In this document: positions 1,004-12,047 of the stretch, piece by piece
How positions within the stretch are numbered: position 1 is the first letter of the stretch
Layout of the letters: the number at the start of each line of letters is the position of its first letter
From: an uncultured Spirochaetota bacterium
GTDB taxonomy: Bacteria > Spirochaetota > Spirochaetia > Treponematales > UBA12059
DNA length: 33,494 nucleotides
Reading direction: 5' to 3'
Assembly: GCA_937873275.1 (NCBI GenBank)
Contig: CALMRC010000163.1
Location: 1-33,494, forward strand
Program-made: the position numbers and the translations under genes
Notes under the pieces: model-generated
The model's input: only the letters and a program-made list of their open reading frames with translations
What the model was told of the DNA's origin: nothing
The model's database searches: none

Positions 1004-1501
1004 ATGCGAACAGTGAAACAGCGGATCCTGTCCTTCCTGGGGCTCTGGGGGGTTTGGCTCCTCCTGACGGCCCCCTGGAACTCCGAAGAGGCCGCGGCCG
1101 GGGCCGTCGTCGCCCTCCTGGTCGCGGCGCTACCCTTCTCCCGGGCATCCCCCCTCGGGGACCTGAAGCTGGGCCCCCGGGCACTGGCGACCCTGGTCGC
1201 CTACTTCTTCGTCTTCACGAAAGCCCTCGTCCTCTCGAACCTGGACGTCGCGTTCCGGGTCCTCCACCCCCGGCTTCCCATCGCCCCGGGGATCGTGAAG
1301 GTGAAGACCCGTCTCAAAACCCCCCTAGGCCGACTTCTCCTGGCGAACTCCATCACCCTGACCCCCGGCACGATCACCGTGGAGATGCGGGGCGAGGACG
1401 TCTTCGTCCACTGGATCAAGGTGGCGGACGCGGATCCGGAGGGCGCCACCGCCGCCATCGTGGGGGGATTCGAGAAATACCTGGAGGTGATCTGTGGCTG
1501 A
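1004..1501 (+). CDS. Mrp/Mbx complex subunit E-like (MnhE family)
   Basis: First gene of the operon: a 165-residue membrane protein of the MnhE/MrpE family (subunit A of Mbh/Mbx complexes), part of the cation-translocating module. Seen: two N-terminal hydrophobic segments (FLGLWGVWLLL and the AAAGAVVALLVAALPF stretch), a third around LVAYFFVFTKALVL, then the family-typical soluble tail with TPLGRLLLANSITLTPGTITVE and VHWI. The ATG at 1004 is preferred over earlier in-frame starts because it begins the conserved region and has GGAGGG at 992-997. The end overlaps the next gene by 8 bases. Confidence 0.9.
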   Translation: MRTVKQRILSFLGLWGVWLLLTAPWNSEEAAAGAVVALLVAALPFSRASPLGDLKLGPRALATLVAYFFVFTKALVLSNLDVAFRVLHPRLPIAPGIVKVKTRLKTPLGRLLLANSITLTPGTITVEMRGEDVFVHWIKVADADPEGATAAIVGGFEKYLEVICG

Positions 1502-1754
1502 AATCGTTTTCGCGGCCGCCGCCGGGCTCGCCGTCCTGGGCCTCCTGCTCTCCGCCGTCCGGTTCGCCCGGGGTCCCTGGGCGATCGACCGGACCGTGGC
1601 CCTGGACGTGATGACCATCATCGCCACGTCCCTGATCGTGGCCTTCGCCGTGTTCTCCGGCAGGCGGATCTACGTGGACGTGGGCATGGTCTACGGGCTC
1701 GTGGGATTCGCGGGGGTCGTGGCAATAGCCCGGTACCTGGAAGGGGGGCTGTAG
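1494..1754 (+). CDS. Mrp/Mbx complex subunit F-like (MnhF family)
   Basis: An 86-residue, three-helix membrane protein of the MrpF/MnhF family (subunit B of Mbh/Mbx). Seen: RFARGPWAIDRTVALDVM, the family hallmark (GP..DR..A.D), then helices around TSLIVAFAVFS and MVYGLVGFAGVVAIARYL. It starts at GTG, preceded by an excellent ribosome site GGAGGTGATC at 1483-1492 that lies inside the end of the previous gene, so the two are translationally coupled. It is a structural part of the ion-translocating module and has no enzymatic role of its own. Confidence 0.9.
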   Translation: MAEIVFAAAAGLAVLGLLLSAVRFARGPWAIDRTVALDVMTIIATSLIVAFAVFSGRRIYVDVGMVYGLVGFAGVVAIARYLEGGL

Positions 1755-1755
1755 G

Positions 1756-2100
1756 ATGAACGAGATCGTCGGAGCCTTCGTGAGCCTGGCCGGCTCCCTC
1801 TTCTTCCTCCTTTCGGCCGTCGGTCTTTTGCGCATGCCGGACGCCTTCAACCGGATGCAGGCGGGCACCAAGGCGACCACCCTGGGATCCATCCTTTTCC
1901 TCCTGGGCATCGGCATCATGAAGCCGGACTGGCTGGGAAGGATGGTCATCCTGATCGTGTTCATCGTCCTCACGAACCCGGTCAGTTCCAACGCCCTGGC
2001 CCGGGCGGCCCACGCCCACCGGAAGCGGATCGGGGCCCGGTTGGAGCCGGACGCCCTGGCGGCCGAGGACGGAGGGAAGGAGGCCGGTCATGCTGGTTGA
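1756..2100 (+). CDS. Mrp/Mbx complex subunit G-like (MnhG family)
   Basis: A 114-residue MrpG/MnhG-family membrane protein (subunit C of Mbh/Mbx). Seen: three hydrophobic helices, the conserved GLLRMPDAFNRMQAGTKATTLG segment (RMPD..R..A.TK..T.G is the family signature), and a long charged tail from about residue 80. The ATG follows the previous TAG by one base, with AAGGGGGG at 1741-1748 as ribosome site. The 3' end overlaps the next gene by 11 bases. Confidence 0.9.
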   Translation: MNEIVGAFVSLAGSLFFLLSAVGLLRMPDAFNRMQAGTKATTLGSILFLLGIGIMKPDWLGRMVILIVFIVLTNPVSSNALARAAHAHRKRIGARLEPDALAAEDGGKEAGHAG

Positions 2101-2377
2101 CGTCGCTCTCCTGGTTTCCGGGATCGTCATGATCGCCGCGGGGATCGGGGCCGTCCTGGCCCGGAGCCTCCTGGTCTCCATCCTCCTGTCCGGAGGCGTG
2201 AGCCTGGCGGCCAGCCTGGTGTTCCTGCTCATGGGGGCGCCGGACGTGGCCATGACCGAGGCCGCCATCGGGTCCGGGCTGACCACCGTGGTCTACCTGT
2301 ACGCCCTGGCCCGGGCCCGCCAGCCCGATGAGGAGGACTCGGATCCTCTCGGAAATTCCGTGAAGGGAGGCCGCTGA
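2090..2377 (+). CDS. MbxD-like subunit (DUF4040, MrpA C-terminal-like)
   Basis: A 95-residue, three-helix protein equivalent to the DUF4040 part of the MrpA C-terminus and to MbhD/MbxD. Seen: LLVSILLSGGVSLAASLVFLLMGAPDVAMTEA in outline, with the invariant APDVAMTEAAIGSG core at about residues 50-63. This Glu-bearing helix is thought to be part of the cation path in Mrp and Mbh complexes (family knowledge). Its presence as a separate small gene is typical of Mbh/Mbx operons and unlike stand-alone Mrp antiporters, where it is fused to MrpA. Confidence 0.88.
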   Translation: MLVDVALLVSGIVMIAAGIGAVLARSLLVSILLSGGVSLAASLVFLLMGAPDVAMTEAAIGSGLTTVVYLYALARARQPDEEDSDPLGNSVKGGR

Positions 2378-3078
2378 TGATGCGCAGGGTACTCGTATTC
2401 CTGGCCGTGGCGGGCCTGGCCTGGGCCCTCCTTCCCCTGGCCCTGGGTTCGGGGGTTCCCGAGGCCCCCGGCGCCCTGGCGACCGCGTACCTCACGGACG
2501 CGCCCGCGGACTTCGGGGCCGCCAACATCGTGACGGCCATCGTGGTGAGCTACCGGGGCTTCGACACCCTGGGCGAGGTGGCGGTCCTCTTCGCGGCCAC
2601 CGCGGGCGTGGGAGCCCTCCTCACCCGGAAACGCCTGGGACTCGGGGACGCGGAACCCGAGGCCAAGCCCGCGGCCACGGAGATCCTGGTCACCGCCACG
2701 GGGCTCCTCACGGGCCTTCTGGTGATGTTCGGGGTCTACATCTTCCTGCACGGCCACCTGACCCCCGGGGGAGGATTCCAGGGCGGCGTGGTGATCGCCA
2801 CGGCCCTCCTCCTGGGCCTCCTGGCCCGGCCGGAATCGCATCTGTCCCACGGTATCCTGGCGGCGGTGGAATCCCTGTCCGGAGCCGCCTACGTGGGTAT
2901 GGGGCTTTTGGGCGCCTTCCTGGCCTGGGGCTTCCTGGATCCCCGGGCCCTGCCCCTGGGACGGATCGGGTCCCTGGTCAGCGCCGGATCCATCCCGGTC
3001 ATCTATTCCCTGATCGGCCTCAAGGTCGGCGCCGAACTCTCCGGAATCCTCGACGCCCTGAAAGGAGACCGCGAATGA
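2377..3078 (+). CDS. MbxE/F-like fusion (MrpA-tail plus MnhB)
   Basis: A 233-residue membrane protein made of two modules that are separate MbhE and MbhF genes in Pyrococcus Mbh. Residues 1-85 carry an MbhE/MrpA-tail module with NIVTAIVVSYRGFDTLGEVAVLF. Residues 105-233 carry the MnhB module with the hallmark HGHLTPGGGFQGGVV. Several hydrophobic helices follow, including LAAVESLSGAAYVGMGLLGAF. The start overlaps the previous stop by one base and the end overlaps the next gene by four (ATGA). It is part of the Na+/H+-handling half of the complex. Confidence 0.88.
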   Translation: MMRRVLVFLAVAGLAWALLPLALGSGVPEAPGALATAYLTDAPADFGAANIVTAIVVSYRGFDTLGEVAVLFAATAGVGALLTRKRLGLGDAEPEAKPAATEILVTATGLLTGLLVMFGVYIFLHGHLTPGGGFQGGVVIATALLLGLLARPESHLSHGILAAVESLSGAAYVGMGLLGAFLAWGFLDPRALPLGRIGSLVSAGSIPVIYSLIGLKVGAELSGILDALKGDRE

Positions 3079-3470
3079 GCCTCCTGGAATTCGTCTCCCG
3101 GATCAATCCCGTGGCGGCCTCCGGGGCCGTCCTGGTGCTGGTGGGCGTCTGGGGCGTCCTGGCCCGGCCCAACCTCTTCAAGATCGCCATCGCGACCTCC
3201 GTGATGGAGACCGGCGTGAACCTGGTCATCCTCTCCACCGGCTACATCCGGGGCCGCACGGCGCCCATCCTGGACTCCGCGGTCGCCGGCACGGCGACGG
3301 ACGCGGCCGGAGCCGCCGCCCGGATGACGGACCCGGTGCCCCAAGCCCTGGTCCTCACGGCGATCGTCATCGGCCTGGCGGTCACGGCCCTCCAACTCTC
3401 CTACGCCGTGCGGCTCCGGGCCGCCGGGGGAGGCTCCTCCATCGAATCCTACGGAGACGAGAAATGGTGA
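3075..3470 (+). CDS. Mrp/Mbx complex subunit C-like (NuoK/MnhC family)
   Basis: A 131-residue MrpC/MbhG-type subunit, homologous to NuoK of complex I. Seen: three hydrophobic helices, a Glu inside the second (SVMETGVNLVILS), and the highly conserved DPVPQALVLTAIVIGLAVTA around residues 86-105. In NuoK-type proteins the membrane Glu belongs to the proton path; assigning the same role here is inference. It overlaps the neighbours on both sides (ATGA at its start, 7 bases at its end), so it is translationally coupled. Confidence 0.9.
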   Translation: MSLLEFVSRINPVAASGAVLVLVGVWGVLARPNLFKIAIATSVMETGVNLVILSTGYIRGRTAPILDSAVAGTATDAAGAAARMTDPVPQALVLTAIVIGLAVTALQLSYAVRLRAAGGGSSIESYGDEKW

Positions 3471-6400
3471 ACCCCCTCTGGCTCTTCGCCCTGTCCCTCG
3501 GGGCGGCCTTCCTCCTGCCCCTGGTGGACCGGTTGGGTCGCCGGATCGCCCTGGTCCTGGTCCACGGCGTGACCGCGGCCTGGCTGGCCGCCGGGCTCTC
3601 CTGGCTCGCGGTCCTTCTGTCCGGCGGGGAGGCCGCCGAGTTCGGGACCGCGGGCTTCCGGGCCCCCCTGGCCATCGTGCTCCGGGTGGGCCTGGCCGAG
3701 GCGGCCGGCGTCACGGCGATCGCCCTGACGGGACTCCTGGCCGCCTTCTCCCTTACCCGGTCCCTCCGGGAAGCACCCCTGGGCGGGGCCATGGCCCTGC
3801 TCATGGCCCTCATGGGGCTCTCCGGGATCGTGCTGACCCGGGACCTCTTCAACCTCTTCGTCTTCCTGGAGATCTCCGCGATCGGGACCTACGGGCTCCT
3901 GGGGTTCGACGACCGGAAGCCCGCCCTCCGTTCGGCCTTCAAGTACATGATCGCCGGGGGATTGGCGAGTTCCCTGTACCTGATCGGGGTGATCTACGTG
4001 TACCGCCTGGCGGATACCCTGAACCTGGACATCGCCGCCGCGGGCACCGCCCTCTCGGGGCCCGCCGGAACCGCGGCGGTATTCTTCCTCCTGGCCGCTC
4101 TCCTGGTGGAACTCAAGCCCTTCCCGGCCAACGGCTGGGCGGTGGACGCCTACGAGACCGCCCATCCCGGGATCTCCGCGATACTGTCCGGTGCTTCCGC
4201 CACGGCCCTCCTCCTGGCCCTCTGGAAGATCCTGCCCCTCCTGGGTCCCGCCCACCTGTCCCTGGTGGCGGGAAGCGGACTGGCCACCTTCGCGGCGGGC
4301 AACCTGGTGGGAGCCCGGCAGGACCGGCCCCTGCGGATGCTCGGGTATTCCTCCGTGGCCCAGGTGGGCCTGGTGGCCGCGGTGGCGGCCCTCGCCCGCC
4401 TCGGCGGCCTGGGGGACGGCGGGGCGGACTTCGCCGCGGCGGTGGCGGGCGGCCTCCTTCTGAACCACCTCCTGGCCAAGACGGGCCTCTTCCTACTGGC
4501 CGGAGCCGTGGAGGACGACGACGCCCGGGGCCGCCTGGCTCCCCTGTCCCTGGCCGCCGCGGGCGTCCTTTCGGCGGCCCTGGTGGGACTGCCGCCCTTC
4601 CCGGGCTTCTGGGCCAAGTGGCGCCTGGTCCGGGCCCTGGCGGACTCGGGGCTGTGGTGGATCCTGGCCATAGTCCTGGGGGGAAGCCTCCTGGAGGCCT
4701 TCTACGTCTTCCGCTGGCTCGGGCTCCGGGCCAAGGGCGAGGCCGGCGAGGCCCCCGTCCGGCTCGGGATCCGGAGCGCCGGTCCCGTCCTGGCGGCCCT
4801 GCTCCTGGCCGCCGCGGGCGCGCTGGCCGGGATCCGGGGACCCGTCCCGGACCTCCTGCTCTGGGCCCCCTGGGCCGCCGCGGCGATCCTCTTCCTCCTG
4901 GACGGGACCCCCGGATGGCTCAAGGGCCTTCTATCCGTGGCCGCCGCGGCCGCCTTCGGCGCCGCCGCCTGGGACCGGCTGGACGGCTTCCGCCAGTTCT
5001 TCGCGGTCATGCTCCTGGGCGGCGGGGCCCTCTTCTCGATCGCGGCCCTCCGGAAGGGCGGCCCCCGTCGGGGCCTCCACCCCCTCCTGGCCGCCGCGAC
5101 CCTGGCCCTCGGGGCGATCCTGGTCGCCCGGACCCCCCTGGAGTTCTTCTTCGCCTGGGAAACCATGACGGCGGCCAGCTGGCTCCTGGTCCTGCGGGGC
5201 CGGGGCGGGGAAAAGCCCGCCCTCTCCTACATCGTCTTCGGCCTCGGCGGGGCCTTCCTCCTCATGGCCGGCCTCGCCGCGGGGGGCTGGGACGGAGGGA
5301 TCGCGGCCGCGGGCTGGCCGGGCCTCCTGGTCCTGGTCGGCCTCCTGGTGAAGGCCGGCGCTCTGGGGGTTCACGTCTGGCTGCCGGGCTCCTACGCGGA
5401 GTCGGACGACGAATCCTCGGGATTCCTGTCCTCGGCCCTGTCCAAGGCCCCGATCTTCGCCCTCTTCGCCCTGGCCCTGTCCCTGGGAGCCGCCCTGCCC
5501 GGCGGACCGTGGACTAGCCGGGCCCTGGGCTGGCTGGGCCTGGCCACCGCCCTGGGCGGCGCCCTGTACGCGGTCTACCAGGAGGACATCAAGCGAACCC
5601 TCGCCTATTCCTCCCTGGGGCAGATCGGGTACATCCTCCTGGCCTTCGCCGCGATGGACCAGGCGGGCTGGACGACCTCCCTGTATTTGGCCCTGAACCA
5701 CTTCCTGTACAAGTCGATGCTCTTCCTGGCCGTCGCGGGGGTGATCCAGCGCACGGGGACCCGGAACATGTACGAGATGGGAGGGCTCATCAAGAAGATG
5801 CCCGTGAGCTTCCTGTCCGTGCTCATGGCCATCATCGCCCTGTCCGGGGTGCCTCCCCTGTCGGGCTTCGGCGGGAAGTGGCTCCTCTACTCGACCCTGA
5901 TCGGAAAGGGCTGGTACCTGGAGACCGCGGTCGCCTTCTTCGCCAGCGCCGTGGCCTTCCTCTACCTCTACCGCCTGATCCACTCCATCTTCCTGGGCCA
6001 GCCCAAGCCCTCCCAGGCGAACGTGCGAGAGGCCCCGGTGGCCCTGGTCCTGCCCCAGCTGGTCCTGATGGCGGTCCTGATGGCGGTCTCGGTCTTCCCC
6101 CGGCTGATGCTGGATCCCATCCTGGCCCTGGTGGGGGACCGGTTCCCCGCCGCCTTCGTCTTCGAGGGAACCCGCCTGCGCTCGGCCCTGGGGTACTGGG
6201 ACGGGACCCTGACCATGATCGTCACGGGGGGAGTCTTCGCCCTCTGCCTGGTCTGGATGCTGGCCAACCTGCACAACCCGCAGTCCGTGAAGCAGTTCAA
6301 CATCGTCTTCGCGGCGGAGCGGCCGTTGCGGCCCGAGACCACCCACTACGCCTGGCGCTTCTTCGAACCCTACCGGAAGGCCCTGGGCTTCCTGACCCGG

Positions 6401-6553
6401 GAACGGGCCGAGCGCTTCTGGGACGCCTTCGGCACCGGGGCCGCCTCCGTCGGGGGCGCCCTGCGGCGACTCTATACCGGGAACGGCCAGACCTACGCCC
6501 TCCACGTCGTGCTGTACGTGGCGGTCCTCTATCTCCTCCTGGGGGTCCTGTGA
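3464..6553 (+). CDS. Double antiporter-like subunit (MbxH-H' fusion, two MrpD/NuoN modules)
   Basis: A 1029-residue, very hydrophobic protein that holds two complete proton-transporter-like modules (NuoL/M/N, MrpD, MbhH family) in one chain. Module 1 (about 1-450) has the helix-5 Glu136 in FNLFVFLEISA, Lys218 in VELKPFP, and Lys339 in LLLNHLLAKTG. Module 2 (about 465-1029) has Glu566 in FFFAWETMTA, Lys630 in GLLVKAG, and Lys750 in LNHFLYKSM. These are the residues known to be central to ion pumping in the family, so both modules look competent. Pyrococcus Mbx has two separate subunits, H and H', at this place in the operon. The start overlaps mrpC; the end overlaps the next gene by one base. 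Confidence 0.92.
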   Translation: MVNPLWLFALSLGAAFLLPLVDRLGRRIALVLVHGVTAAWLAAGLSWLAVLLSGGEAAEFGTAGFRAPLAIVLRVGLAEAAGVTAIALTGLLAAFSLTRSLREAPLGGAMALLMALMGLSGIVLTRDLFNLFVFLEISAIGTYGLLGFDDRKPALRSAFKYMIAGGLASSLYLIGVIYVYRLADTLNLDIAAAGTALSGPAGTAAVFFLLAALLVELKPFPANGWAVDAYETAHPGISAILSGASATALLLALWKILPLLGPAHLSLVAGSGLATFAAGNLVGARQDRPLRMLGYSSVAQVGLVAAVAALARLGGLGDGGADFAAAVAGGLLLNHLLAKTGLFLLAGAVEDDDARGRLAPLSLAAAGVLSAALVGLPPFPGFWAKWRLVRALADSGLWWILAIVLGGSLLEAFYVFRWLGLRAKGEAGEAPVRLGIRSAGPVLAALLLAAAGALAGIRGPVPDLLLWAPWAAAAILFLLDGTPGWLKGLLSVAAAAAFGAAAWDRLDGFRQFFAVMLLGGGALFSIAALRKGGPRRGLHPLLAAATLALGAILVARTPLEFFFAWETMTAASWLLVLRGRGGEKPALSYIVFGLGGAFLLMAGLAAGGWDGGIAAAGWPGLLVLVGLLVKAGALGVHVWLPGSYAESDDESSGFLSSALSKAPIFALFALALSLGAALPGGPWTSRALGWLGLATALGGALYAVYQEDIKRTLAYSSLGQIGYILLAFAAMDQAGWTTSLYLALNHFLYKSMLFLAVAGVIQRTGTRNMYEMGGLIKKMPVSFLSVLMAIIALSGVPPLSGFGGKWLLYSTLIGKGWYLETAVAFFASAVAFLYLYRLIHSIFLGQPKPSQANVREAPVALVLPQLVLMAVLMAVSVFPRLMLDPILALVGDRFPAAFVFEGTRLRSALGYWDGTLTMIVTGGVFALCLVWMLANLHNPQSVKQFNIVFAAERPLRPETTHYAWRFFEPYRKALGFLTRERAERFWDAFGTGAASVGGALRRLYTGNGQTYALHVVLYVAVLYLLLGVL

Positions 6554-7467
6554 TGGAAACCGGAATCCTGACCCGCATCGGGTACGCCCTGGTATCCCTG
6601 TTCGTGATCACGAACTACGGCCTTTTGCTGATCGGGTCGATGGCCCGGATCAGCGCCAAGGTCCAGGGACGCGTGGGCCAGCCCGTGTGGCAGCCCTACA
6701 TCGACATCGTGAAAAGCACGGCGAAGCGTAACTCCATCGGCCACGGGATCATGTTCTACCTGGGTCCCGTCTTCCGCCTGGCCGGAGGGGTGGGCACCTA
6801 CATGTTCATCCCCGCGGTCTACGGATCGGTCCTCTTCCGGAACTTCTCGGACTCCGGGGACCTCCTCCTGGTGATGTACTTCATCTTCTTCGGCCAGCTC
6901 GGCATGGCCCTGGGGGCCAGCGAAGGGGGCCACCCCTACTCCGCCATCGGCGTGAGCCGGGGGCTCTCCCAGATGACCGCCTTCGAGGTGCCCTTCGCCC
7001 TCTCCGTGATCGCCGTCGCGATCCAGTACCGGACCCTGGACATCACGGCCATCGTGGCCGCCCAGCAAGGCGGCTTCTGGAACTGGACGGTCGCGACGAA
7101 TCCCCTGGCGGTGGTCGCCGCCCTGATCGCCTTCCTGGGCATGTCCATGCACAATCCCTTCAGCATCGTCATCGCCCCCCAGGAGATCCCCATCGGCCCG
7201 CCCACGGAGTACCAGAGCAACCTCCTGGGCATGCTCCAGACGAACCGGGCGATCTTCAACGGGGCCAAGCTCGTCCTATACATGAACCTGTACTTCGGCG
7301 GCGCGACGGACATCGTGACCATGGTGGTGAAGACCTTCCTCATCTACTTCATCAACGTGTTCGTCGGACAGGCCTTCCCCCGGTTCCGGGTCGACCAGTC
7401 GATCCGGTTCTTCCTGGGCGTGCCCACCCTGATCGGCATCGCCTCGGTCATCATCGCGGCGATATAG
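6553..7467 (+). CDS. ND1/NuoH-like membrane subunit (MbxM type)
   Basis: A 304-residue membrane anchor homologous to NuoH, MbhM and MbxM, linking the hydrophilic arm to the antiporter-like subunits. Seen: GRVGQPVWQPYIDIVK at about 36-51 (the NuoH-type RxGPxxxQPxxDxxK motif), LGASEGGHPYSAIGVSRGLSQM, FEVPFALSV, and PIGPPTEYQSNLLG with its acidic loop. About eight hydrophobic segments are visible. Its position, before the NuoB-like gene, matches the Mbx gene order; in Pyrococcus Mbh operons this gene comes near the end. The ATG overlaps the previous TGA by one base. Confidence 0.9.
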   Translation: METGILTRIGYALVSLFVITNYGLLLIGSMARISAKVQGRVGQPVWQPYIDIVKSTAKRNSIGHGIMFYLGPVFRLAGGVGTYMFIPAVYGSVLFRNFSDSGDLLLVMYFIFFGQLGMALGASEGGHPYSAIGVSRGLSQMTAFEVPFALSVIAVAIQYRTLDITAIVAAQQGGFWNWTVATNPLAVVAALIAFLGMSMHNPFSIVIAPQEIPIGPPTEYQSNLLGMLQTNRAIFNGAKLVLYMNLYFGGATDIVTMVVKTFLIYFINVFVGQAFPRFRVDQSIRFFLGVPTLIGIASVIIAAI

Positions 7468-7477
7468 GAGGCCGACC

Positions 7478-8107
7478 GTGTCCGACAAGAAAGGCAAGCC
7501 GGTGCCCCTGGCCAACGAGGGGCTTCCTGCCGGGGAGCGGGGACTCTTCTGCGACGCCCCCCCGAGGGAATACGCCCCGGCCGCGAAGATCGTGGAGGAT
7601 TTCTGGAACTGGGCCCGGTCCCAGAGCCTGTGGATCCTGGGCTTCGGCACGGGCTGCGGGGCCATCGAGCTCCGGCCCCTCATGACCAGCCGCTACGACA
7701 TGTACCGCTTCGGCATCCAGCCCCGGCCGACCCCCCGGCAGTCCTCGGTCTTCGTGATCGGGGGTTACGCCTCCGTGAAGACCCTGAAGCGCATCGTGCG
7801 GAGCTACGAGCAGATGATGGGCCCGAAGTTCGTCGTGGCCCTGGGTTCCTGCACCATCAACGGCGGCATGTACTGGGACAGCTACAACACCATCAAGCGG
7901 ATCGACCAGTACATCCCGGTGGACGTGTACATCGCGGGCTGCATGCCCCGTCCCGAGGCCCTGCTGGCGGGCTTCCAGGAGCTCAAGCGGATCATCCGCG
8001 CGGGCAAGGCGGAGGGCCAGAACGAGTACGCCCGCAACTTCGAGTGGTACAAGGCCAACCAGAAGCGGGTCATCAAGGACTGGAACATGCCGGACTACAA
8101 CTGGTAG
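7478..8107 (+). CDS. NuoB/PSST-like iron-sulfur subunit (MbxJ type)
   Basis: A 209-residue soluble subunit that would hold the last [4Fe-4S] cluster (N2-like, proximal) next to the membrane. Seen: SLWILGFGTGCGAIE with Cys60, YDMYRFGIQPRPTPRQS, ALGSC with Cys125, and YIAGCMPRPEALL with Cys155. Complex I has CCxxE here with two adjacent Cys; this protein has CGxxE, so one of the four usual ligands is missing. Another Cys (Cys25) lies in the N-terminal region. The GTG start has a perfect AGGAGG at 7466-7471 that overlaps the previous stop. The tail after about 175 is charged and family-specific. Confidence 0.9.
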   Translation: MSDKKGKPVPLANEGLPAGERGLFCDAPPREYAPAAKIVEDFWNWARSQSLWILGFGTGCGAIELRPLMTSRYDMYRFGIQPRPTPRQSSVFVIGGYASVKTLKRIVRSYEQMMGPKFVVALGSCTINGGMYWDSYNTIKRIDQYIPVDVYIAGCMPRPEALLAGFQELKRIIRAGKAEGQNEYARNFEWYKANQKRVIKDWNMPDYNW

Positions 8108-8116
8108 GGGGGAAGG

Positions 8117-8650
8117 ATGCGAGAACTGGCGGAAAAGCTCGCCGGACGCTACGGCGCCCGGGAATGGCGCGACCAGAGGCGGGACCTCTCCTCCGTGACC
8201 GTGGACGCCCAACGAATGCGGGATGTCCTGACCTGGCTCCGGGACGAGGAAGGATACGTCCACCTGGCCTTCGCGACCGCGGTGGACGAGATCGAGCGGA
8301 AGGCCTTCCGGCTGACCTACGCGGTACACAACCACGGCACGGGCCATGGACTGTTGGTCCACTGCGAGATCGACCGGGAACGGCCGGTCATGGAGTCCAT
8401 CCACCGGCTCTGGGGCCAGGCCTGGACTTACCAGCGGGAGATGAAGGAGTGGTACGGGATCGACTTCCCGGGCAGCCCCCGGGTGGACGAGGAGTTCGTC
8501 CTGGAGGGCTGGGAGGGGCCGCCCATGATGCGGAGGGACTTCGACTCCCTGGCTTACAGCGACGCCACCTATGCCGAGCGGCCCGGCCGCGAGACCCGGG
8601 ACCCGGCGGCGTACATGAAGGAAAAACTCTACCCGGAGGCCGACGCATGA
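8117..8650 (+). CDS. NuoC/30-kDa-like subunit (MbxK type)
   Basis: A 177-residue soluble subunit homologous to NuoC, MbhK and EchD. It has no cofactor and scaffolds the NuoD-like subunit. Seen: a weakly conserved N-terminal domain, then the family signature around residues 98-118 (SIHRLWGQAWTYQREMKEWYGIDFPG; the usual form is A.W.ERE..D.FGI.F.G), and a late PPMMRRDF matching the PLRKDF motif. The gene follows the NuoB-like gene by 9 bases and overlaps the next by four (ATGA), so expression is coupled. Confidence 0.88.
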   Translation: MRELAEKLAGRYGAREWRDQRRDLSSVTVDAQRMRDVLTWLRDEEGYVHLAFATAVDEIERKAFRLTYAVHNHGTGHGLLVHCEIDRERPVMESIHRLWGQAWTYQREMKEWYGIDFPGSPRVDEEFVLEGWEGPPMMRRDFDSLAYSDATYAERPGRETRDPAAYMKEKLYPEADA

Positions 8651-9810
8651 GCCGTGCCAAGATCCCCTACGTGCCCCCCGAGGAGCGGGCCTTCCCGGAC
8701 CTGGATTCCGGAAAGTACCTGGTGATGTGGCAGGGGCCGAACCATCCGGGCATAACGGGGAACATGTCGTTGCGCCTGGTGATCGAGGGCGACTCGGTGG
8801 TGGACTGCGAGACCCACGTGGGCTACCTCCACCGGGGCTTCGAGAAGCTCATGGAGCGGCGGCTGTGGATGCAGAACTTCCCCCTGGTCTGCCGCATCGC
8901 CGTGCCGGAGCCGGACTTCAACGAGTACTGCTACGCCGCCGCCCTGGAGGAACTCGCGGGGATCGAGATCCCCGAAAAGGCGGTCTGGCTCCGGACCCTT
9001 TCCCTGGAGATGATCCGCCTGGCCAGCTTCCTCATGTGGATCGGCGGCCAGGCGGGAGCCTTCGGCCACGGGACCATCGCCCAGTGGAGCGTCACGATGC
9101 GGGACTACGTCCTGGACCTCTTCGAGGAGCTCTCGGGCGGCCGCATCTACCACATGTACATCATCCCCGGCGGAGTCCGCGCCGACGTCCCTCCGGGCTT
9201 CCTGCGGCACGTCCTGGAGACCATGACCGTCGTCGAGCAGAACCTGAAGGACATCGAGCTCGTGATGTTCCACAACGCGGTCATGAAAATGCGCGCGGTC
9301 GGGCTCGGGTACATCCCCCGGGACTGGGTGGAGCGCTACGGCATCACGGGCCCCAACGCGCGCGCCGCGGGGGTCCGGCGGGACCTCCGCAAGGACCGCG
9401 GCTACCTGGCCTATCCCCGCCTCTCCTTCGAGCCCGTGGTCGGGACGGAGTCGGACGCCTTCGAGCGCGCGCGGCTCCGGCTGGCGGAGATGTTCCAGGC
9501 CATCGACCTGATCCGCCAGATCGTGGACGCCCTGCCCGCGGAGGGGGCGTTCCGGGAGCGCCTGCCGAACCCCCTGCACTGGAGGATCCCCGCCGGGGAG
9601 ACCTACGTGTCCGCGGAGTGTACCCGCGGCGAGTACGGCTTCTACGTCGTGTCGGACGGCGGCGACAAGCCCCGCCGGGTGGCCGTGCGGGGACCGAGCT
9701 ACACCCACGCCGTGTCCGTCATGGAGCGCCTGGTCCGGGGCGTGAACATCGCGGACGTGGCGGGACTCATGGTGAGCCTCCACACCTATCCGCCCGAGAT
9801 CGAGAGGTGA
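8647..9810 (+). CDS. NuoD/49-kDa-like large subunit (MbxL type), no NiFe site
   Basis: A 387-residue homologue of NuoD and of the large subunit of group 4 hydrogenases. Seen: GPNHPGITGNMSLRL near the N-terminus, VGYLHRGFEKLME, then FPLVCRIAVPEPDFNEYCY, and a C-terminus VAGLMVSLHTYPPEIER. The paired CxxC motifs that bind NiFe in hydrogenases are absent at both ends, so this is not a hydrogenase. Complex I proteins have HPxxHG near the start; here the second His of that motif, part of the quinone site, is replaced. Both changes fit the Mbx/Mbs branch. Lone Cys residues are at 54, 82, 95 and 325. The start at 8647 is fixed by the ATGA overlap. Confidence 0.9.
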   Translation: MSRAKIPYVPPEERAFPDLDSGKYLVMWQGPNHPGITGNMSLRLVIEGDSVVDCETHVGYLHRGFEKLMERRLWMQNFPLVCRIAVPEPDFNEYCYAAALEELAGIEIPEKAVWLRTLSLEMIRLASFLMWIGGQAGAFGHGTIAQWSVTMRDYVLDLFEELSGGRIYHMYIIPGGVRADVPPGFLRHVLETMTVVEQNLKDIELVMFHNAVMKMRAVGLGYIPRDWVERYGITGPNARAAGVRRDLRKDRGYLAYPRLSFEPVVGTESDAFERARLRLAEMFQAIDLIRQIVDALPAEGAFRERLPNPLHWRIPAGETYVSAECTRGEYGFYVVSDGGDKPRRVAVRGPSYTHAVSVMERLVRGVNIADVAGLMVSLHTYPPEIER

Positions 9811-9814
9811 TCGC

Positions 9815-11590
9815 ATGGATATCAAGGACATCGTAGCCCCCTTCGCCGTCTGGAAGCGCGCCTTCGAGAAGCCCTTCACGGTCCGCAAGCCCATCGACGA
9901 GCGCCCCGGCGCCCCGCGCTACCGCGGCTTCCACATCAACGACGCGGATACGTGCGTAGGCTGCGGGACCTGCGAGAGCATCTGCATGAACAAGGCCATC
10001 GACCTCGTGCCCGTGGAGGGCCGGGAGCCTTCCGCCGGGGACTCCGGCCTCCGGCCCCGGGTGGACTACGGCCGCTGCTGCTGGTGCGCCCTCTGCGTGG
10101 ACGTCTGCCCCTCGGGCTCCCTGGGGATGAGCAACGAGTACCTCTGGATCGACTCGGACCCGGACGTCTTCCGCTACGTGCCCGGGGTGGACGCCAAGCC
10201 CTGGGACGGCGCCGAGCTCGGGTACCGCCGGGCCGAGGGCTACCGCCTCCTGGACATGGAGCGGGTCCCCATGCCGGAGACGGGCCACGCCGAGGGGGTG
10301 AAGTCCTTCCTCGAGCTCGTGAAAGGGTATTCCCGGGACCAGGCGGAGCGGGAGGCGGACCGCTGCGTGGCCTGCGGGGTCTGCGTGGCCTCCTGCCCCG
10401 CCCACATGGACATCCCCGGCTACATAAAGGCGGTCCGGGACGGAGACCTGGAGACGGGACTGCGCCTCCTGTACGAGACCAACCCCTTCCCCGAGGCCTG
10501 CGGCCGGATCTGCACCCGGGCCTGCGAGTCCGCCTGCGCCATCGGTTCCGGGGGCGACCCCGTGGCCATCCGCTGGCTCAAGCGCTACATCGCGGACCAG
10601 GTGGAGCTTGCCGACTACGGAAAGTCCCTCCCCCGGGCGGAGCCGGCCACGGGCCGCAAGGTCGCCGTGGTCGGGGCCGGCCCCGGCGGCCTGGCCGCGG
10701 CCTACTACCTGGCCCTCCTGGGCCACAAGGTCACGGTCTTCGAGAAGGACGAGGCGGCGGGCGGCATGCTCCGGTACGGGATCCCCGAGTACCGCCTGCC
10801 CTACCCCGCCCTGGACAAGGACGTGGACTACATCCGGAGCCTGGGCGTGGAGATCCGCTACGGCGCGGCGGTCGGGAAGGATCCGGCCTTGGCGAAGCTC
10901 CGGAAGGATTTCGACGCGGTGTACCTCTCCACGGGCCTTCCCGCCGCGTACCGCCTGGACGTGCCGGGGGACGACCATCCCCGGGTCCTGGACGGGGTGG
11001 CCATCCTGGCCGCGGCCACCCGGGGCGAGGAGCTCGGCCTGGGCCGGCGGGTCGCCGTGGTCGGGGGCGGCAACGTGGCCATGGACGCCGCCCGGACCGC
11101 CCTGCGCCACGGCTGCGAGGTGGACATCGTCTACCGCCGCCGGGAGGTCGACATGCCCGCGGACCCCGAGGAGATCCGGGAAGCCAAGGCCGAGGGGGCT
11201 CGCCTGATCGAGCGGGCCATCCCCGTCCGGGTGGAGGATTCCGGGGACGGCGGGGCCCGCTTCGTGTGGAACGAGGCCGAGATGGTGCAGAAGGAGCCGG
11301 GCAAGCGCCCCGTCCCCGAGCCCATCCCCGGGGCGGTCGTGACCGAGCGGTACGACTCCGTCATCGCGGCCATCGGCCAGGGGCCGGACCTGGCCTACCT
11401 GACCGAGGCGGACGGGGTGGAGGTCCGGCGCATGAAGCCCGTCACGGACCGCGCGGGGCGAACCAGCGTCCCGACGGTCTTCGCGGGCGGCGACCTGGTG
11501 AACGAGAAGAAGGACGCCATCTCCGCCATCGCGGACGGTCACCGCGCGGCCCGGGCCATCGACCGCCTCCTGGGCGGGAAGGGGGACTGA
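9815..11590 (+). CDS. Ferredoxin-like NuoI/MbxN domain fused to GltD/NfnL-type FAD-NAD(P)H oxidoreductase
   Basis: A 591-residue fusion. Residues 1-110 are a NuoI/MbhN-like double [4Fe-4S] domain: Cys47/50/53/57 and Cys88/91/94/98. Residues 165-591 are a GltD-type module as in the small subunit of NADPH glutamate synthase and in NfnL. It adds Cys184/187/190/194 and Cys229/233/237/241, an FAD loop GAGPGG at 287-292, a nucleotide loop GGGNVAMD at 417-424, YRRREVDMP after it, and a C-terminal FAD contact VFAGGD. Up to four [4Fe-4S] clusters plus FAD and NAD(P) binding are expected. No glutamate synthase large subunit is nearby, so electron exchange between NAD(P)H, ferredoxin and the membrane complex is the likely role (inference). 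GAGAGG at 9802-9807 is the ribosome site. Confidence 0.9.
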   Translation: MDIKDIVAPFAVWKRAFEKPFTVRKPIDERPGAPRYRGFHINDADTCVGCGTCESICMNKAIDLVPVEGREPSAGDSGLRPRVDYGRCCWCALCVDVCPSGSLGMSNEYLWIDSDPDVFRYVPGVDAKPWDGAELGYRRAEGYRLLDMERVPMPETGHAEGVKSFLELVKGYSRDQAEREADRCVACGVCVASCPAHMDIPGYIKAVRDGDLETGLRLLYETNPFPEACGRICTRACESACAIGSGGDPVAIRWLKRYIADQVELADYGKSLPRAEPATGRKVAVVGAGPGGLAAAYYLALLGHKVTVFEKDEAAGGMLRYGIPEYRLPYPALDKDVDYIRSLGVEIRYGAAVGKDPALAKLRKDFDAVYLSTGLPAAYRLDVPGDDHPRVLDGVAILAAATRGEELGLGRRVAVVGGGNVAMDAARTALRHGCEVDIVYRRREVDMPADPEEIREAKAEGARLIERAIPVRVEDSGDGGARFVWNEAEMVQKEPGKRPVPEPIPGAVVTERYDSVIAAIGQGPDLAYLTEADGVEVRRMKPVTDRAGRTSVPTVFAGGDLVNEKKDAISAIADGHRAARAIDRLLGGKGD

Positions 11591-11591
11591 C

Positions 11592-12047
11592 ATGGGATAC
11601 GCCACATTCGGGGAGGTCCTGGAGTTCGCCGTCGGCCGGGAGGAGGCCGCCGTCGCCTTCTACGAGGAACTGTCCGGCATCGCGGCCTTCGCGGCCCAGA
11701 AGTCCACCCTGGCGGAGTTCATCGCCATGGAGAAGGGTCACGCGGCCATGCTCCGGTCCATGAGATCCCGGGGAACGGTCAACCTCTCCGCCTCCACGGC
11801 CGTGGACCTCGGCGCGGCCCGGCGGGTCGAGGCGACGGACCGCCCCCCCGCGGGCATGACCTTCCAGGACATCCTCACCGCGGCGGCCTCGAAGGAGACC
11901 CGGAGCTTCGAACTGTACGATCGGCTGGCCCGGGAAGCCGGGGATCCCGGCATCCGGGAGACCTTCGAGCGCCTGGCCGGGGAGGAATCCCGGCACCGGG
12001 CCTACTTCCAGGACCTGTACGAGCGGGAGGTCGCCCGGGACAACTGA
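11592..12047 (+). CDS. Rubrerythrin-like ferritin-fold di-iron protein
   Basis: A 151-residue four-helix protein of the rubrerythrin/ferritin-like family. Seen: EEAAVAFYEEL in helix 1, AMEKGHAAML (ExxH) in helix 2, SKETRSFELYDRLA in helix 3 and GEESRHRAYF (ExxH) in helix 4, a full set of di-iron ligands. There is no rubredoxin domain (no CxxC pairs), so it is a short, erythrin-type form. It starts one base after the preceding stop, with GGGGGA at 11581-11586, so it is the last gene of the complex operon. Peroxide or oxygen removal to protect the iron-sulfur complex is the likely role. Confidence 0.82.
   Translation: MGYATFGEVLEFAVGREEAAVAFYEELSGIAAFAAQKSTLAEFIAMEKGHAAMLRSMRSRGTVNLSASTAVDLGAARRVEATDRPPAGMTFQDILTAAASKETRSFELYDRLAREAGDPGIRETFERLAGEESRHRAYFQDLYEREVARDN

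Follow-up and report, generated by a model that had tools for sequence, protein, structure and literature searches.

The origin of the NADH module of complex I is an open question, and MBH and MBS are taken as models of an ancestor that lacked such a module. Pyrococcus MBS runs on ferredoxin without any NADPH module, and its proximal cluster is held by three cysteine ligands (MbsJ C28, C93, and C123), with C25 lying close by as a nonligand (PMC7684303). In T. maritima, mbxA is induced by S0 (PMC9431562). Among NADPH modules, StnC is a GltD-NuoG fusion that passes NADPH electrons to another module and whose own FAD is nonbifurcating; where NfnB has a Glu ligand to its FAD-proximal cluster, StnC has Lys170 (PMC10482914).

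The DNA analyzed here (the window, 33,494 nucleotides) is a whole contig of a 3.6-Mb draft genome from an uncultured Spirochaetota bacterium. The genome is 97% complete, and the named relatives closest to it are metagenome assemblies of spirochaetes. A single operon in the window contains the MBS/MBX subunit set, namely, an Mrp-type arm, two antiporter modules, and NuoH-, NuoB-, NuoC-, NuoD-, and NuoI-like subunits, the last of these as part of a fusion protein:

1004..1501, + strand, MnhE/MbsA-like subunit (start codon chosen by us)
1494..1754, + strand, MnhF-like subunit (assigned by position and synteny)
1756..2100, + strand, MnhG-like subunit (assigned by position and synteny)
2090..2377, + strand, DUF4040/MbsD-like small membrane subunit (assigned by position and synteny)
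2377..3078, + strand, MnhB/MbsE-like subunit
3075..3470, + strand, MnhC/MbsG-like subunit
3464..6553, + strand, tandem antiporter-like subunit of 1029 aa with two MnhD/NuoL-M-N-like units (equivalents of MbsH and MbsH')
6553..7467, + strand, NuoH/MbsM-like membrane anchor (start codon chosen by us)
7478..8107, + strand, NuoB/MbsJ-like subunit with a three-Cys proximal cluster (C60, C125, C155)
8117..8650, + strand, NuoC/MbsK-like subunit
8647..9810, + strand, NuoD/MbsL-like large subunit without the NiFe cysteine set
9815..11590, + strand, NuoI-GltD fusion gene, ATG to TGA, 591 aa, without an internal stop
11592..12047, + strand, rubrerythrin-like diiron protein, a probable associated subunit or partner

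The fusion gene starts 4 bases after the NuoD stop codon and ends immediately ahead of the rubrerythrin-like gene. The features of its product that are needed below are as follows:

aa 1-115, MbsN/NuoI-like di-[4Fe-4S] domain, followed by a linker
aa 184-241, two further [4Fe-4S] motifs, between the linker and the FAD domain
aa 280-590, NfnL/GltD-type FAD and NADP domain
9953..9985, + strand, Cys motif 1, C47/C50/C53/C57 (CxxCxxCxxxC)
10076..10108, + strand, Cys motif 2, C88/C91/C94/C98 (CxxCxxCxxxC); C89 is also invariant
10364..10396, + strand, Cys motif 3, C184/C187/C190/C194 (CxxCxxCxxxC)
10499..10537, + strand, Cys motif 4, C229/C233/C237/C241 (CxxxCxxxCxxxC)
10580..10582, + strand, K256 codon, at the column of StnC K170 and of the NfnB Glu ligand
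11132..11143, + strand, YRRR (residues 440-443) after the second glycine loop, NADP type by motif

A first-pass annotation of the DNA had described sixteen cysteines in four motifs ahead of FAD and NAD(P) loops in one 591-residue chain. The open reading frame is intact, and all of these residues could be mapped: 16 of the 18 cysteines of the protein fall in the four motifs (C89 and C434 are the extra ones), residue 287 opens the FAD loop (GAGPGG), and residue 417 opens the NAD(P) loop (GGGNVA). An antisense open reading frame of 612 aa (9767-11605) was rejected as the coding frame on codon-position G+C, which reaches 96% at the third position of the fusion frame and 71% for the antisense frame. 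The same annotation had proposed a NuoI-like domain joined to a GltD/NfnL-type flavoenzyme, and both domain matches and fold bear this out. Pfam and NCBIfam searches returned an N-terminal NuoI-like dicluster domain, Fer4_20 (DPD domain II) at residues 163-263, and a pyridine-nucleotide oxidoreductase at residues 282-575, while residues 144-588 of an AF2 model superposed on NfnL with a Z score of 41 and 2.0 A over 435 residues. The first AF2 model was poor over the NuoI half; a second was better (pTM 0.79), with pLDDT values of 39-82 over the first 150 residues. The matches listed in the structural comparison were all to residues from about 143 onward; the absence of MbsN/NuoI chains among those listed is no evidence against these.

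An architecture of this kind has been cataloged before. The NCBIfam family PRK13984 (NF010590, "putative oxidoreductase") covers the window protein along its whole length (residues 2-587 against 7-607 of 611), and that protein scores 659 bits, under the curated cutoff of 946. The family was matched by all 29 members of our first alignment, and a match above the cutoff occurred in 1 of 14 control genomes, which may be that of T. maritima. PRK13984 shares the architecture of the window protein from end to end, but the family itself carries no assigned function, so the architecture has already been seen and not explained. Our literature search found no paper on PRK13984, only unrelated papers on MbxN/MbsN, and none on a NuoI-GltD fusion or on the biochemistry of any member, although the fusion may already have been mentioned in a subscription journal. 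There was no match among the plasmid sequences compared.

The fused gene is real and widespread. We found 44 homologues from independent assemblies of five phyla, all with the same architecture and the same joint, and full-length homologues occur in assemblies of Spirochaetota, Bacteroidota, Cloacimonadota, Fermentibacterota, and Fibrobacterota. The motif cysteines were all invariant in alignments of 29 and 33 sequences; from C47 to C241, 17 of 17 cysteines were invariant in the 33-row alignment, which extends down to 39% identity, and the spacing within the four motifs was identical across every homologue examined. Nothing in the window favors an assembly or annotation frameshift that joined two genes; among relatives, the one relevant observation is a same-genus draft genome (G002, locus L018, contig C55) in which the fusion gene is broken over two frames at about residue 250. 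Set against it are the shared joint of the 44 homologues and the existence of PRK13984 as a curated full-length family, and the chance of such an artifact is negligible. The frameshift that the first-pass annotation had named as grounds for refuting the fusion is excluded by these homologues. The break in G002 is probably a sequencing error; the other full-length copies are intact.

In a sample of 296 Spirochaetota genomes, the fusion was present in 13 (15 matches), and the MBS-like NuoD gave 15 matches in the same 13 genomes. The fusion is therefore a constant subunit of the complex in Spirochaetota and not an occasional variant. In Bacteroidota, just 2 of 296 sampled genomes carried the fusion, and the seed genome is one of these 2. 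Two Spirochaetota genomes carry two fusion complexes each (G295, loci L119 and L120; G103, loci L124 and L125).

The gene order MnhE-F-G-DUF4040-MnhB-MnhC-antiporters-NuoH-B-C-D, with the fusion last, was found in every locus with enough flanking sequence, in at least four phyla. This conserved operon supports the earlier proposal that the GltD module, which normally serves other enzymes, has here become part of the subunit through which electrons enter a membrane complex. The equivalents of MbsH and MbsH' are also fused in the relatives of the window and in the Bacteroidota, Cloacimonadota, and Fermentibacterota loci, while most loci of the other clades encode the two separately. No NuoE/F/G NADH module was found in the operon, and the NuoF-like matches of the genome lie on other contigs, below the family cutoff. 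The glutamate synthase partner GltB was not found among the window open reading frames, nor were a NuoG-domain fusion and a HydB-type partner, by which StnC/NfnABC systems are recognized, at the locus.

The best PDB matches of the complex were MBS chains, at 3e-24 for the NuoI part, 1e-66 for NuoB (next match, 2e-39), and 5e-96 for NuoD (next match, 1e-60). C60, C125, and C155 of the window NuoB are the three MbsJ ligands and are kept in relatives, which, like the window protein, have Gly in place of MbsJ C25. MbsL C85 and C385 align with A85 and Y381 of the window NuoD, which lacks the L1/L2 Cys pairs; with both CxxC motifs of the NiFe site missing from the large subunit, a group 4 NiFe hydrogenase was ruled out. 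A quinone-reducing complex I was ruled out by other NuoD residues: those that contact the quinone headgroup in complex I (Nqo4 H38 and Y87) are absent, and the window protein has GPNHPGITGN and RIAVPEPD where 49-kDa subunits show HPxxHG and RxDY (PMC7684303). The three MBS-closest subunits, the three-Cys cluster, and the lack of NiFe and quinone residues therefore place the complex in the MBS/MBX type. The first-pass annotation, which had seen a membrane complex with Nuo-like parts, was right about the membrane complex; what has changed is its class, which is MBS/MBX and not a generic complex I.

The rubrerythrin-like gene is the next gene after the fusion gene in Spirochaetota and Bacteroidota, and the residues that would bind its diiron site (E17, E47/H50, E102, and E132/H135) do not vary among eight relatives. 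The fusion protein of a separate clade is itself longer by about 150 aa at the C terminus, and this extension gave no match in Pfam; profile comparison showed it to be homologous to the rubrerythrin-like protein (97%, E 7e-11), with decayed ligands. Since the extension is fused in another clade, the rubrerythrin-like protein is a probable partner or subunit of the complex. In G295, one of the two fusion copies has the extension and the other does not.

The nucleotide pocket appears to differ between clades. In the window clade, the second glycine loop is followed by YRRR, whereas a sister clade has the acidic (C/S)LE or a similar motif, and the two groups are parted by one branch with 100/100 support in a tree whose columns include the motif itself. 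We infer from the motifs that the window clade has NADP-type and the sister clade NAD-type pockets.

The genome also encodes RnfC, several NuoF/HydB-like proteins, and Nfn, a set that would be typical of a fermentative anaerobe. The Nfn is a separate NfnS/NfnL pair on another contig, with the NfnS-type gene preceding NfnL. A further contig of the genome (C6, locus L082) holds a NuoF/HydB-like and GltD fusion in a 1062-aa frame, which resembles the StnC/NfnABC-type modular NADPH enzymes.

We consider it fairly probable that the fusion protein takes the MbsN position in a bacterial complex of the MBS/MBX type and serves there for electron entry, its NuoI-like part being joined to an NfnL/StnC-type module with an NADP(H) site, FAD, and two [4Fe-4S] clusters, and that it feeds NADPH electrons into a Na+/H+ pump. 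Electrons would pass from NADPH, the likely donor, to FAD and then one at a time along a presumed linear wire, from the two GltD-type clusters to the two MbsN-type clusters and on to the three-Cys proximal cluster of the MbsJ-like NuoB, which would adjoin the membrane and bring the number of clusters to five. From there they would reach a small hydrophobic acceptor in the NuoB/NuoD/NuoH cavity, and the Mrp-type arm with its two antiporter modules would move Na+ or H+. Reduced ferredoxin may enter the same cluster chain, as it does in MBS. The acceptor would most likely be sulfane sulfur or polysulfide, which is the best guess because of the MBS precedent; the induction of T. maritima mbx by sulfur (PMC9431562) also speaks for the explanation. 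Against it, the source organism is not known to reduce sulfur, little driving force is available between NADPH and polysulfide, and Pyrococcus MBS runs on ferredoxin with no NADPH module at all (PMC7684303). An NADPH-dependent sulfur oxidoreductase is among the closest homologues of StnC, and StnC itself is a precedent, its GltD-type NADPH module being fused to a NuoG domain and serving as a nonbifurcating input (PMC10482914).

Whether the flavin bifurcates electrons, as the first-pass annotation had suggested it might, turns largely on K256, a column that we located by counting along printed alignments. All 44 homologues have Lys there, as do 9bov and 9n5u; the NfnL proteins of T. maritima, P. 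furiosus, and the source genome itself have Glu. An NfnL-type FAD that links the membrane arm to NADPH and ferredoxin by bifurcation or confurcation would fit the NfnL fold, the presence of R327 at the column of NfnB R201, and the fact that carriers of two different potentials could meet at such an FAD. Against it, the NfnB Glu ligand is replaced by the Lys that nonbifurcating StnC also has, the Arg does not discriminate because StnC carries one as well (PMC10482914), and there is no NfnS-type partner among the window open reading frames. We had also tried two single residues as markers of bifurcation: neither was diagnostic, the R201-column Arg for the reason just given and C229, the first Cys of its motif, because T. 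maritima NfnL shares it. With Lys in all 44 homologues, no NfnS at the locus, and a separate Nfn in the genome, we regard this reading as very unlikely, and electron bifurcation at the FAD of the fusion protein is not supported. K256 and the lack of NfnS instead make a nonbifurcating NAD(P)H input module the simplest reading, with K256 as a suggestive marker and not a proof. In a related scheme, which we think unlikely, NAD(P)H and ferredoxin would both deliver electrons to the pump by way of a single fused flavin/Fe-S subunit, to be combined (by confurcation or a switchable input) ahead of the membrane arm; this would amount to an independently assembled complex I with NADP- and NAD-type clades.

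The direction of flow could also be reversed. A ferredoxin:NAD(P)+ oxidoreductase, with ferredoxin entering at the NuoI-type clusters, FAD reducing NADP+, and ions being exported, ranks second among the explanations that we considered, though we think it unlikely. For Pyrococcus Mbx, electron transfer from ferredoxin to NADPH coupled to ion translocation was once proposed (PMC2678158, PMC3608648), and the NADP site that is missing in Pyrococcus MBS and Mbx is physically present in the fusion. However, such a flow would bypass the NuoB/NuoD/NuoH cavity, in which complex I and MBS couple redox chemistry to pumping, the proximal cluster retains the MBS ligand set, and Rnf and Nfn are already encoded in the genome. 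Rnf transfers electrons from ferredoxin to NAD+ with ion export.

With NADPH as the input, the whole would work like complex I, with an NAD(P)H module, a cluster wire, and an ion pump, but with a different NAD(P)H module. Since the entry subunit is joined to an NADPH module, the machine looks, from its sequence, like an independent counterpart of respiratory complex I that probably pumps Na+ or H+. Through gene fusion, another kind of NAD(P)H module has come to sit on an MBS-type complex; this is the case in several phyla, with putative NADP-type and NAD-type variants. It would thus be a natural parallel experiment in coupling such a pump to nicotinamide, and it offers a direct route to testing the role of bacterial MBX complexes in fermentative anaerobes.

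Besides the PRK13984 family, three described systems come closest to the complex. P. furiosus MBS (6u8y) and T. maritima MBX have the same subunit set, the same three-Cys cluster, and likewise no NiFe site; unlike them, the window clade has fused antiporter subunits, and whereas MbsN (6u8y_N, 208 aa) has no flavin or NADP module, the window subunit adds a GltD/NfnL module of 440 aa. NfnL/NfnB (4ylf, 5jca) has the same fold, with FAD and NADP sites and two [4Fe-4S] clusters, but the window protein lacks an NfnS partner, has Lys for the Glu ligand, and continues in the same chain as a NuoI domain. StnC of Sporomusa ovata (8oh5) and the large subunit of NfnABC (9bov, 9n5u) combine, as here, a GltD NADPH input with a complex I-type Fe-S module and the Lys; in those enzymes, however, the partner domain is of the NuoG type and the complex is soluble and bifurcating, whereas in the window it is a NuoI/MbsN domain, in what is probably a membrane pump.
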